A stretch of 64,000 nucleotides of DNA from an uncultured Acidimicrobiaceae bacterium (lineage in GTDB: Bacteria > Actinomycetota > Acidimicrobiia > Acidimicrobiales > SZUA-35), in contig CAMYLA010000001.1 in the NCBI GenBank assembly GCA_947259095.1, forward strand, positions 102,158-166,157. The letters run 5' to 3'. A model generated the notes under the pieces. The model was not told where the DNA came from and did not search any database. It saw only the letters and a program-made list of their open reading frames with translations. A program made the translations under genes and the position numbers. Below, one piece after another: positions 29,998 through 35,211 of this stretch. Numbering within the stretch: the stretch's first letter is position 1; the number at the start of each line of letters is the position of its first letter.

Positions 29998-32115
29998 TCA
30001 GAGGTTGGTGGCCCACCAGTCGGTGGCCGAGCCGATTCCCCACTGCTGGGCCAGCCCCGTTCCGATGAGATCCGACCACAGTTCCAGGGCGGATGGGCGA
30101 GCATCCGGGCTCTTGTCCATACACCGCAACAGCAGCATCTCCAGGTTTTCGGGAACCTGGAACGGGCTTCGCCGAGACGGCGGGACCGGCTGCTCCATCA
30201 CGTGTTTCATGATCAGCGCCATCGTGTTCGGTGCATCGAAGACCGGCTCACCGGTCAACAGCCAGTGCCCGACGCAGCCGAGGGCGTAGATGTCGGCCTT
30301 GCCGGTCAACGGGTCGGTGGCCATCGCCGCTTCCGGTGAGAGGAAGGTCGGGGTCCCGGCGATTGCGTTCTCCGTGGTCAGGCGGGTCGCCTCGGCATCG
30401 GACGTGTCGGAGACCATCCCGAAGTCCAGGACCTTCAAGATGTCGACCTCGAGACCCAGTCGGCAGAGGAAGAGGTTGGCCGGTTTGATGTCGCGGTGAA
30501 CGAGACCGGATTGATGGGCCTCGGCCAGCGAGCAGCAGGCCTGGGTGAGGAGATGGGCCACCCGGGCCGGTGGCATCGGCCCGAATCGACGCACCGCATC
30601 GCTCAGGTCGATCCCGTCGAGCCGTTCCATGACATAGTAGAACGCGCCGTCTTCACTGACGCCGAAGTCGTAGAGCTCCACGGTGTTGCGGGACGTCAGG
30701 TTGGCGGTGACCCGGGCCTCGCGCTCGAAACGTCTCCGATGAGCCGTGGCCTCCGGACCGCTCGAACCGCTGTTCTTGATCAGCTTGACCGCAGCCGAGC
30801 GCGGCAGAACCTGATGGTTGGCCTCCCAGACCTCGCCCATGGCACCGGCCCCCAGCATGCGGGTGAGCCGATAACTCCCCAGCGGGATCCCCTGCTGCAG
30901 CAGGCGGGATTCGACGTGAAGCGACCGGTCCCGGGACAACTCCACACTCTGGCGAAGCACATCGTCCAGCTCCCGCAGGTTTCCCGGCCACGGGTAGGCG
31001 GCCAGGCTGGCCATGGTCTCATCGGAGATTGCGGGTTCGGGCTGCCCGAGACGCCGGCTGTGGAGGCTCACGAAATGGTGAACCAATGCCGGTATGTCGT
31101 CGGCCCGTTCGATCAGCTCCGGGAGTCGTAGGGTGTTGCGCCTCAGCTCCTGAGCCAGCAACATCTCGAACTCCCCGGTGAAGGTGGAGCCCTCCTTGGA
31201 GTGGCGGGTGGTGGCGATCACCCGCACGTCGTGACCGTACTCGGGCTCTTCCCCGCCCACCAGAACAGCCAGGAGCTGGGTTTGCTGGGCCCCGTTGAGC
31301 CGGTCGACGCTGTCCAGGAACAACGTCCCGCCCTCGGCCAGCGAGAGTTTCGTCGCACCGCCGGCCGCCGCCTCGGGCTCAAAGAGATTGGCTGTGTTGC
31401 CTGGCGACAGGACCGCGCAGTCAACTGCCACGAACGGCCTGTCGCTTCTGGCCGACGCAGCGTGAATGGCCCGCGCCGCTGCCTCCGAACCGCAGTTGGG
31501 CTCGCCGACGATCAACAGCGGGGTTCGGACCGCGACCGCCGATCGGATACCGGCCTTCACCGTTGCGATGGCGTCGCTCGTACCGAGGAGGGGGGCACTT
31601 TGGCGCTGCAGTGCCTCGGCCCGGAACTCGCTGGCCAGCCGGAGCTCCCGCTCCAGCTCGGCGTTGCGGTCGCCCAACCGGTGCAGCACTCGAGACAGCG
31701 CCAGATGTGTGGTCACCCTGGCAACCACTTCCTCGGGCTGGAACGGCTTGGTGATGAAGTCGGCCCCGCCGACCTCGAAACCCCGCACCTTCGATGGCGT
31801 GTCTTCCAGTGCCGAGCAGAAGACGACCACGGTGTCCCGGAGCTCGGGGGTCGCCTTCATCCGACGACAAACCTCGTACCCGTCCATCTCGGGCATCATC
31901 ACATCGAGCAGGACCAGCGCCGGGCGGGTCTTCCGGGCCAGTTCGAGCGCTCTGGCACCACTGTTGGCCGCAGCCAGCTTGTGGCCGAGACCTTGCAGGG
32001 TGTGCATCAAGACCTGCAGGTTGAGCGGTGAGTCGTCGACCAGCAGTATCTGTTGCGACTCGGCGCCCTCCGGTGGCAGACCGACCTCGGAGAGGGCCTG
32101 ATCCAACCAGTCCAT
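29998..32115 (-). CDS. Receiver / pseudo-NtrC AAA / Ser-Thr kinase fusion
   Basis: 705 residues in three modules. Residues 20-140 are a receiver (D71 in LLDVMMPEMDG, K123 in ITKPF). Residues about 170-400 follow the NtrC AAA+ layout but are catalytically dead: Walker A reads GEPNCGSE without its Lys (204-211), GAFTGA is absent, and Walker B is GGTLFLDSV without its Glu. YPWPGNLREL is kept. Residues 411-690 are a eukaryotic-type Ser/Thr kinase: GAGAMGEV loop, K444, HRDIKPANLFL (D542), DFG 564-566 and SPE 593-595, so it looks active. The ATG directly abuts the TAG of the hybrid histidine kinase gene. The likely job is to turn a His-Asp signal into Ser/Thr phosphorylation. Confidence 0.9.
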   Translation of the reverse strand: MDWLDQALSEVGLPPEGAESQQILLVDDSPLNLQVLMHTLQGLGHKLAAANSGARALELARKTRPALVLLDVMMPEMDGYEVCRRMKATPELRDTVVVFCSALEDTPSKVRGFEVGGADFITKPFQPEEVVARVTTHLALSRVLHRLGDRNAELERELRLASEFRAEALQRQSAPLLGTSDAIATVKAGIRSAVAVRTPLLIVGEPNCGSEAAARAIHAASARSDRPFVAVDCAVLSPGNTANLFEPEAAAGGATKLSLAEGGTLFLDSVDRLNGAQQTQLLAVLVGGEEPEYGHDVRVIATTRHSKEGSTFTGEFEMLLAQELRRNTLRLPELIERADDIPALVHHFVSLHSRRLGQPEPAISDETMASLAAYPWPGNLRELDDVLRQSVELSRDRSLHVESRLLQQGIPLGSYRLTRMLGAGAMGEVWEANHQVLPRSAAVKLIKNSGSSGPEATAHRRRFEREARVTANLTSRNTVELYDFGVSEDGAFYYVMERLDGIDLSDAVRRFGPMPPARVAHLLTQACCSLAEAHQSGLVHRDIKPANLFLCRLGLEVDILKVLDFGMVSDTSDAEATRLTTENAIAGTPTFLSPEAAMATDPLTGKADIYALGCVGHWLLTGEPVFDAPNTMALIMKHVMEQPVPPSRRSPFQVPENLEMLLLRCMDKSPDARPSALELWSDLIGTGLAQQWGIGSATDWWATNL

Positions 32116-35100: not shown

Positions 35101-35211
35101 CCCGGGATCCAGGACCACCACGTAGGCCGGGCTCTGCTCGACCACCCGCTCGAGGAGCCGTTCCTGGGCGGTTGAAGGGTCCGGCATCCCGCTGTCCTCG
35201 GTTTCTGCCAT
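32116..35211 (-). CDS. Hybrid sensor histidine kinase, BarA-like
   Basis: 1031 residues, cytosolic by sequence (no membrane helix). Two PAS domains (about 20-130, 140-250), HisKA with H290 ([13 protein letters not shown]), HATPase ([28 protein letters not shown]), receiver 1 (D588, [11 protein letters not shown]), receiver 2 (D731, [11 protein letters not shown]), and an HPt domain with H891 ([13 protein letters not shown]), then a 65-residue C-terminal extension. All relay residues needed for His-Asp-His-Asp transfer are present, so the HPt can pass phosphate to D71 of the downstream kinase fusion. ATG 35211 is chosen; AGGA lies nine bases upstream. Confidence 0.93.

Follow-up and report, generated by a model that had tools for sequence, protein, structure and literature searches.

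The window examined here is a stretch of 64,000 nucleotides from an uncultured Acidimicrobiaceae bacterium, and the locus of interest consists of two genes on its reverse strand. The first gene (32116–35211) encodes a hybrid histidine kinase of 1031 aa, starting from the ATG at 35211. The second (29998–32115) encodes a protein of 705 aa, without an internal stop, in which a receiver, a degenerate AAA+ domain (pseudo-AAA), and a Ser/Thr kinase domain lie in one chain. The junction between the genes reads TAG-ATG, with 0 nt between the stop of the first and the start of the second, as the preliminary description of this DNA had said. An acyl-CoA dehydrogenase gene on the opposite strand (28699–29904) converges on the pair from one side, and an ORF at 35425–36066 diverges from it on the other; the two genes thus form a unit of their own.

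Pfam searches gave the domain order PAS-PAS-HisKA-HATPase-REC-REC-HPt for the hybrid kinase. The HisKA domain (34177–34374; PF00512, 1.8e-22) has its phospho-acceptor H290 in the motif SHEIRTP. It is followed, on the same strand, by the HATPase_c catalytic domain (33670–34038; PF02518, 3.7e-28), a first receiver with D588 (approximately 33241–33603; PF00072 matched in two stretches, and the span was taken from a weak PF24896 match), a second receiver with D731 (32830–33165; PF00072), and an HPt domain with H891 (32383–32640; PF01627, 4e-10). All four of these relay residues, already named in the preliminary description, were found within their motifs. The Pfam matches and the residue check make the protein BarA-like, with HisKA, HATPase, REC, and HPt domains and the relay residues present. 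Its score against the NCBIfam BarA equivalog was 490.7, below the cut-off of 890; judged by its sequence, it is of the same kind as BarA and is not BarA itself. No membrane segment was evident in the hybrid kinase, where the maximum 19-residue Kyte-Doolittle mean was 1.51, or in the 705-aa protein.

The receiver of the 705-aa protein (31714–32049, reverse strand; PF00072 Response_reg, residues 23–134, 2.4e-26) has a predicted phospho-acceptor Asp, D71, in LVLLDVMMP. Behind it lie an AAA+ core of the NtrC/sigma54-activator type (31114–31587; PF00158 Sigma54_activat, residues 177–320, 6.8e-19; PF14532, 2.8e-16), the end of which was placed at residue 320 or 334, and an AAA lid domain (30910–31110; PF25601 AAA_lid_14, residues 336–402, 6.2e-16). 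The PknB-type Ser/Thr kinase domain (30076–30873; PF00069 Pkinase, residues 415–680, 2.6e-37) comes next; Pfam found no HTH between lid and kinase, the lid match ending at 402 and the kinase match beginning at 415. The best PDB match of the kinase domain was PknB (6.5e-45), and its Hanks-type residues are intact (K444 in VAIK, D542 in HRD, and D564 in DFG), so that it is apparently a working Ser/Thr kinase. The protein scored 209.7 bits against the PASTA-type PknB model NF033483, with a cut-off of 450, and had no PASTA match in Pfam. A C-terminal W...WW signature (W692–W701; 30013–30042) completes the chain, all of it on the reverse strand. The joining of a receiver, an NtrC-shaped AAA+ segment, and a Ser/Thr kinase in one chain, with D71, K444, HRD, and DFG, had been noted in the preliminary description, and is borne out by the single frame with Pfam matches to all modules and by the residues at these positions. 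The GC3 values of the three modules were 0.82, 0.82, and 0.83, and this evenness speaks against a chimera. We rejected an assembly chimera or binning contaminant on the basis of the continuous frame, the even GC3, the same fusion elsewhere, and the native flanks; fusion by chance was also rejected, since eight other proteins have the three-module order and 12 have AAA and kinase domains fused.

The residues of the AAA+ motor were then compared with those of relatives. In the window, Walker A reads GEPNCGSE, with Ser in place of Lys, Walker B reads FLDS, with Ser in place of Glu, and no GAFTGA-like pattern was found in the AAA domain; these are the three losses that the preliminary description had reported. 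In an alignment of the window protein with 12 fused relatives, Lys was found at the Walker A position in none of the 13; the window has Ser in this column, and the relatives have Met, Leu, Ala, His, or Glu (the last in seven). A Walker A pattern matched one of the 13, L215, at a shifted place; this is a chance match, the aligned residue being Glu. A GAFTGA-like pattern was likewise present in 0/13. The controls were unfused AAA domains from 278 loci, 174 distinct ones with a length of 200 aa or more; the Walker A Lys pattern occurred in 164 of them and a GAFTGA-like pattern in 160. The Walker B Glu was lost in 12 of the 13 fused proteins. The loss of the Walker A Lys and of GAFTGA thus extended to every relative found, and none of the 12 had intact AAA motifs, with the single reservation that L212 keeps the Walker B Glu. 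For sensor I Asn, the Arg finger, and other positions that we take to be canonical, an NtrC consensus served as a guide; the sensor I Asn and the Arg-finger segment look lost in the fused proteins, and the sensor II Arg is retained in three (the window, L209, and L215). In contrast, all 13 had the Lys of the kinase together with the Asp of HRD and that of DFG; L211a has a shortened glycine loop, and this kinase copy may be impaired. Because motor residues were lost and kinase residues kept across 13 proteins, we regard this as a property of the fused family and not as decay of one gene.

The protein thus has the sigma54-activator core and lid of the NtrC type, with the ATPase residues, GAFTGA, and the C-terminal HTH all absent. 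A transcription regulator of the NtrC type to which a kinase has simply been added is hardly credible with these parts missing (no GAFTGA pattern, no Walker A and B residues, no HTH), even though the REC-AAA part matches NtrX and NtrC models in NCBIfam, all below their cut-offs.

An AlphaFold2 model of the protein as a monomer, based on an alignment of 41 NtrC-type and kinase rows, had a pLDDT of 84.6 and a pTM of 0.50. In the model, a predicted helix of 45 residues joins the receiver and the AAA domain. Foldseek matched it to NtrX, NtrC1, NtrC4, and LuxO over ~390–400 columns and to PknB/PknA over ~280, the best kinase fold match having 34% identity. The AAA fold match is partly built in, since the AAA domain was modeled with NtrC rows; the Pfam and PDB sequence matches are independent of the model. 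The lid-kinase junction, with a pLDDT of <50, belongs to the weakest parts of the model, and the relative placement of the domains is unreliable.

VpsR is a degenerate regulator of the NtrC type, with an NtrC fold in which the ATPase and sigma-54 motifs are altered, and it retains DNA binding. It was among the fold matches (PDB 7v2b); the protein described here differs from it in having a kinase where VpsR keeps DNA binding. The PDB title mentions c-di-GMP binding, and one P-loop glycine is invariant in our alignment. These two observations would suit an AAA domain that senses nucleotide by binding it and does not hydrolyze it; the kinase would then integrate the phosphorelay with the ATP/ADP level or with a ligand such as c-di-GMP. 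We consider this improbable; the Walker A Lys is lost in 13/13, sensor I looks lost, and the sensor II Arg remains in only 3/13.

The distribution of the fusion was examined by a series of searches, in which the best candidates per genome were scored, so that the family counts are lower bounds. The preliminary description had looked to Acidimicrobiia for the same domain order. That expectation failed: among 395 genomes of the window's class, the fusion was found in 1, the window's own. Only 16 of the 395 had any AAA match, and none of the 19 other AAA places (loci L041–L059) was fused to a kinase. Among the matches listed, no other fusion was found in 246 genomes of the window's phylum (29 other loci read) or in 24 assorted genomes (10 loci read), and a full-length query against 60 relatives gave no full-length match except the window among those listed. 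Of 294 Planctomycetota genomes, at least 8 have the fusion, at 11 or more places in all, as detected with a 141-residue junction query (residues 330–470), the matches to which span lid and kinase; all 11 places are single-frame fusions. A profile (A1) made from the window and the 11 Planctomycetota members added at least one more, from among 194 Verrucomicrobiota-group genomes (336 bits, with the next best at ~200). By sequence, the fused proteins therefore form a sparse family, and it is not one that characterizes the window's class.

In two Planctomycetota classes, profile A1 returned only known members, in 1/23 and 2/12 genomes. In 193 Myxococcota genomes, with a threshold of E 1e-62 and the best 11 candidates per genome, there was no match; at E 1e-15 in 195 Myxococcota genomes, eight new loci were read and none was a fusion. 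A scan of genome contigs with a single-sequence query gave no fusion among its best 80 loci, and the Planctomycetota members did not surface there. The plasmid records listed (15 of 2109 and 10 of 814) had NtrC/NifA-like or other sigma-54 regulator names, together with one PAS-domain protein, one helix-turn-helix protein, and some without annotation. Viral contigs contained four loci with an NtrC-like AAA domain, none with a kinase match.

The 13 fused proteins differ in the domain at the input position, which is a receiver in nine, a protoglobin in two, a PAS domain in one, and a STAS domain in one. Pfam detected Response_reg in L209, L210, L211a, L212, L214, and L216 in addition to the window, and a custom HMM detected the receivers of L211b and L275. 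Protoglobin was found in L207 (1e-24) and L208 (2.1e-22), PAS in L213 (best 6.9e-12), and STAS in L215 (4.1e-9). The receiver-bearing L214 and the STAS-bearing L215 come from the same genome and are sisters at 100/100. The tree requires three input changes, the minimum possible for four inputs, so each of the other inputs needs only one origin. This exchange means that what is conserved as a unit is the AAA-kinase part, which must be able to take signals of several kinds. Within this unit, the spacing from the lid to the kinase Lys was 69–72 residues in 12 of the 13 and 68 in L211a.

Adjacent histidine kinases were sought with the core of the window's own kinase, by which unlike kinases could be missed. 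A hybrid kinase adjoined six of the eight loci with a receiver-type protein (the window, L209, L210, L211, L214, and L275; the exceptions were L212, on a contig of 7 kb, and L216) and none of the four with other inputs (L207; L208, on a contig of 4.3 kb; L213; and L215). The contrast of 6/8 to 0/4 is a small one, given the short contigs at L212 and L208. One histidine kinase was located ~13 kb from the L207 gene. The partner at L209 has the order HK-REC-REC-HPt and 44% identity to the window kinase over 800 aa. At L210, a second hybrid kinase with an HPt domain lies on the other side of the fusion gene (44% identity over 697 residues), so that either of the two flanking kinases may be the partner. 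Kinase gene and fusion gene overlap, stop on start, at L209 (ATGA) and L210 (GTGA), and lie ~39 nt apart at L275. An HPt domain was present in the partners of the window and L209, and none was detected in the adjacent kinases at L210, L211, L214, and L275.

It could be argued from these differences among the partners, from the restriction of HPt among adjacent kinases to the window and L209, and from the second kinase at L210 that the partner does not feed the D71 receiver and that the pair came to be adjacent by chance of transfer. The zero spacing in the window, the overlaps and short gap elsewhere, and the absence of adjacent hybrid kinases at all four loci with other inputs make this very unlikely. 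The relay-to-kinase reading of the preliminary description gains support from the same comparison of sequences, hybrid kinases adjoining most of the receiver-bearing relatives and none of the four others.

Comparison with 11 genomes of the same genus indicated that the segment 29905–35474 was gained in this species between two conserved neighbors. In all 11, the acyl-CoA dehydrogenase gene is followed by a homolog of the gene at ~35475, with 30–254 nt between the aligned ends, and the pair, a gain of ~5.5 kb, is absent from the site. Homology to the window stops at 29900–29916 on the left and resumes at 35475–35596 on the right, and the sequences that directly flank the segment match this site in 11/11 with 71–91% identity. 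Because the site is conserved, the contig is native, and either this lineage gained the pair or, less likely, all 11 other genomes lost it.

In a tree of 80 rows, the kinase domains of the 13 formed one clade with an SH-aLRT of 100. The AAA tree had 78 rows (13 fused, 25 best-scoring, and 40 random controls), and the AAA domains of the 13 grouped with a moderate support of 81 and long branches; for this reason a single origin of the AAA-kinase fusion is likely rather than proven. In a tree of the joined AAA-kinase part, the window paired with L209 (87/88), and a protoglobin member was as near by path length. Identity between the window and L209 is 45%, a divergence which implies that the transfer was not recent or that the donor is unsampled. 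Our best guess for the donor is Planctomycetota or a neighbor, and we infer that the two-gene cassette is of horizontal origin.

In NtrC-type proteins, the ring assembles under the control of receiver phosphorylation, and PknB-type kinases are activated by trans-autophosphorylation on dimerization. In the receiver-type members, receiver, core, and lid are kept and the catalytic and sigma-54 contact residues are lost, and in all 13 the kinase lies at a nearly fixed distance from the lid; read most simply, the oligomeric state would depend on the input, and kinase activity would depend in turn on that state. On balance, we favor as the best explanation a horizontally acquired cassette of two genes in which a phosphorelay switches a Ser/Thr kinase through the assembly state of the pseudo-AAA domain. 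The soluble hybrid kinase would sense through its PAS domains, and phosphate would pass from His290 to Asp588 or Asp731, then to His891, and finally to Asp71 of the partner. The phosphorylated receiver would alter the assembly state of the NtrC-derived AAA+ core, itself predicted to be unable to hydrolyze ATP or contact sigma-54. The change in assembly would switch the attached PknB-like kinase, most likely because kinase domains come close enough to one another for trans-autophosphorylation. The pseudo-AAA domain and kinase would form a transferable unit, with the receiver exchanged for protoglobin, PAS, or STAS in relatives. We infer the phosphotransfer route, the oligomerization or assembly mechanism, kinase activity, the direction of control, and any substrates from the sequences. 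The pseudo-AAA domain is thus probably a nucleotide-independent coupler of interchangeable inputs to a Ser/Thr kinase output that acts by controlling kinase assembly. A scaffold or ring role of this kind, which the preliminary description had suggested, would fit the input exchange and the near-fixed lid-to-kinase spacing.

The main rival holds that the receiver controls the kinase directly, by dimerization through REC and the long helix, and that the dead AAA domain is a relic linker without a role of its own. The pseudo-AAA domain is the most divergent module, its identity to the window protein being 24–37% in the relatives, compared with 44–52% for the kinase and 42–63% for the receiver. 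A passive linker would diverge fast too, and the REC-AAA helix predicted by the model could dimerize without a ring; this leaves room for such a relic. A useless domain of ~230 residues should, however, erode or be deleted, whereas the core and lid are recognizable in 13/13, in two phyla besides the window's and with four inputs, and the lid-kinase spacing is conserved. We therefore rate the relic linker as unlikely. A wider form of the coupler reading is that an NtrC-type ring lost its motor function once, was kept as a nucleotide-independent hub that clusters Ser/Thr kinases and takes swappable inputs, and moved between phyla as a cassette. We put this forward tentatively; such a hub would be a bacterial counterpart, in its logic, of the CaMKII hub domain.

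NtrC-type enhancer-binding proteins such as NtrX, NtrC1, and LuxO match the fused protein in order and fold from receiver through long helix and AAA core to lid; they differ in that here the ATPase residues and GAFTGA are lost, there is no HTH, and the output is a Ser/Thr kinase. Kinases of the PknB/PknA type share the kinase domain and its catalytic residues, whereas the fused protein has no evident membrane segment and no PASTA match, falls in its own clade among the sampled kinases, and carries the W...WW motif. In fungi, the Sln1-Ypd1-Ssk1 relay leads into a MAP kinase cascade, its receiver binding a separate kinase. That system resembles the present one as a His-Asp relay ending in control of a Ser/Thr kinase, and differs in that the receiver and kinase described here share a single polypeptide.

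Response regulators with Ser/Thr kinase output have been suggested for thermophilic cyanobacteria, according to the part of that report available to us (PMC9953108), so a receiver wired to Ser/Thr phosphorylation is already known. The portion seen mentions no AAA module, and the AAA-kinase unit here also takes inputs other than receivers. The main text on Planctomycetota kinases, as far as it was accessible, leaves receiver, Response_reg, sigma-54, Sigma54_activat, AAA, and PAS unmentioned; its supplementary list holds 105 accessory domains, where the fusion may have been listed earlier (PMC11032199). The published open-access literature searched gave us no account of proteins with the order REC-AAA-Ser/Thr kinase or with a pseudo-AAA domain fused to a kinase, and within that literature a pseudo-AAA-kinase unit that takes interchangeable inputs appears to be undescribed. 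In a large census (PMC4558063), according to the part consulted, proteins carrying a serine/threonine kinase annotation were dropped from the collection of HK, HPt, and RR proteins, and through filtering of this kind surveys can miss such fused proteins.

If the favored reading is true, the two main phosphorylation systems of bacteria, His-Asp relays and Hanks-type Ser/Thr kinases, are joined in one soluble chain, and the protein would be a clean case of a pseudoenzyme ring retained as a coupler. A dead motor may in this way serve as a reusable coupler between sensor and protein kinase. With inputs exchanged on the same core, it becomes testable what turns on those bacterial Ser/Thr kinases that are cytosolic and have no membrane sensor. 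The W...WW motif was found in all 13 family members and in 0 of 73 other Ser/Thr kinase ORFs, some of them cut by locus ends, and it provides a simple signature for finding more members.

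Two family members with different inputs, the N-terminal sensor domains preceding the pseudo-AAA-kinase unit, were present in a single genome of 9.5 Mb: one with a STAS input (L215) and one with a REC input (L214). The tree placed L214 and L215 as sister genes, and the pair represents a comparatively late exchange of input. At two further loci (L207 and L208), Pfam identified protoglobin, a heme sensor, fused to the pseudo-AAA and Ser/Thr kinase; these proteins are possible gas-sensing Ser/Thr kinases. At locus L211 (7976–12243), the REC-pseudoAAA-kinase gene occurred twice in tandem, followed by a REC-HK-REC gene. 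The glycine loop was shortened in the first copy, which may be a partly dead kinase.

The assembly containing the window is 6.39 Mb in size with 7.1% contamination; it is larger than 10 of 11 genomes of the same genus (4.1–5.4 Mb), the remaining one being 6.7 Mb. Within the window, adjoining the acyl-CoA dehydrogenase gene, a PIN-domain ORF and the ORF preceding it (27848–28306 and 28313–28774, minus strand) form a probable toxin-antitoxin pair; the Pfam match of the preceding ORF to the Phd/YefM antitoxin was weak and under its cut-off. The plus-strand region 36252–39071 probably encodes TRAP transporter subunits, one DctQ-like by a weak Pfam match and the other a 632-aa membrane protein judged by eye to resemble DctM. 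The tRNA gene search detected only one tRNA gene within the 64-kb window, tRNA-Ile(GAT) at 6890–6971 on the minus strand.
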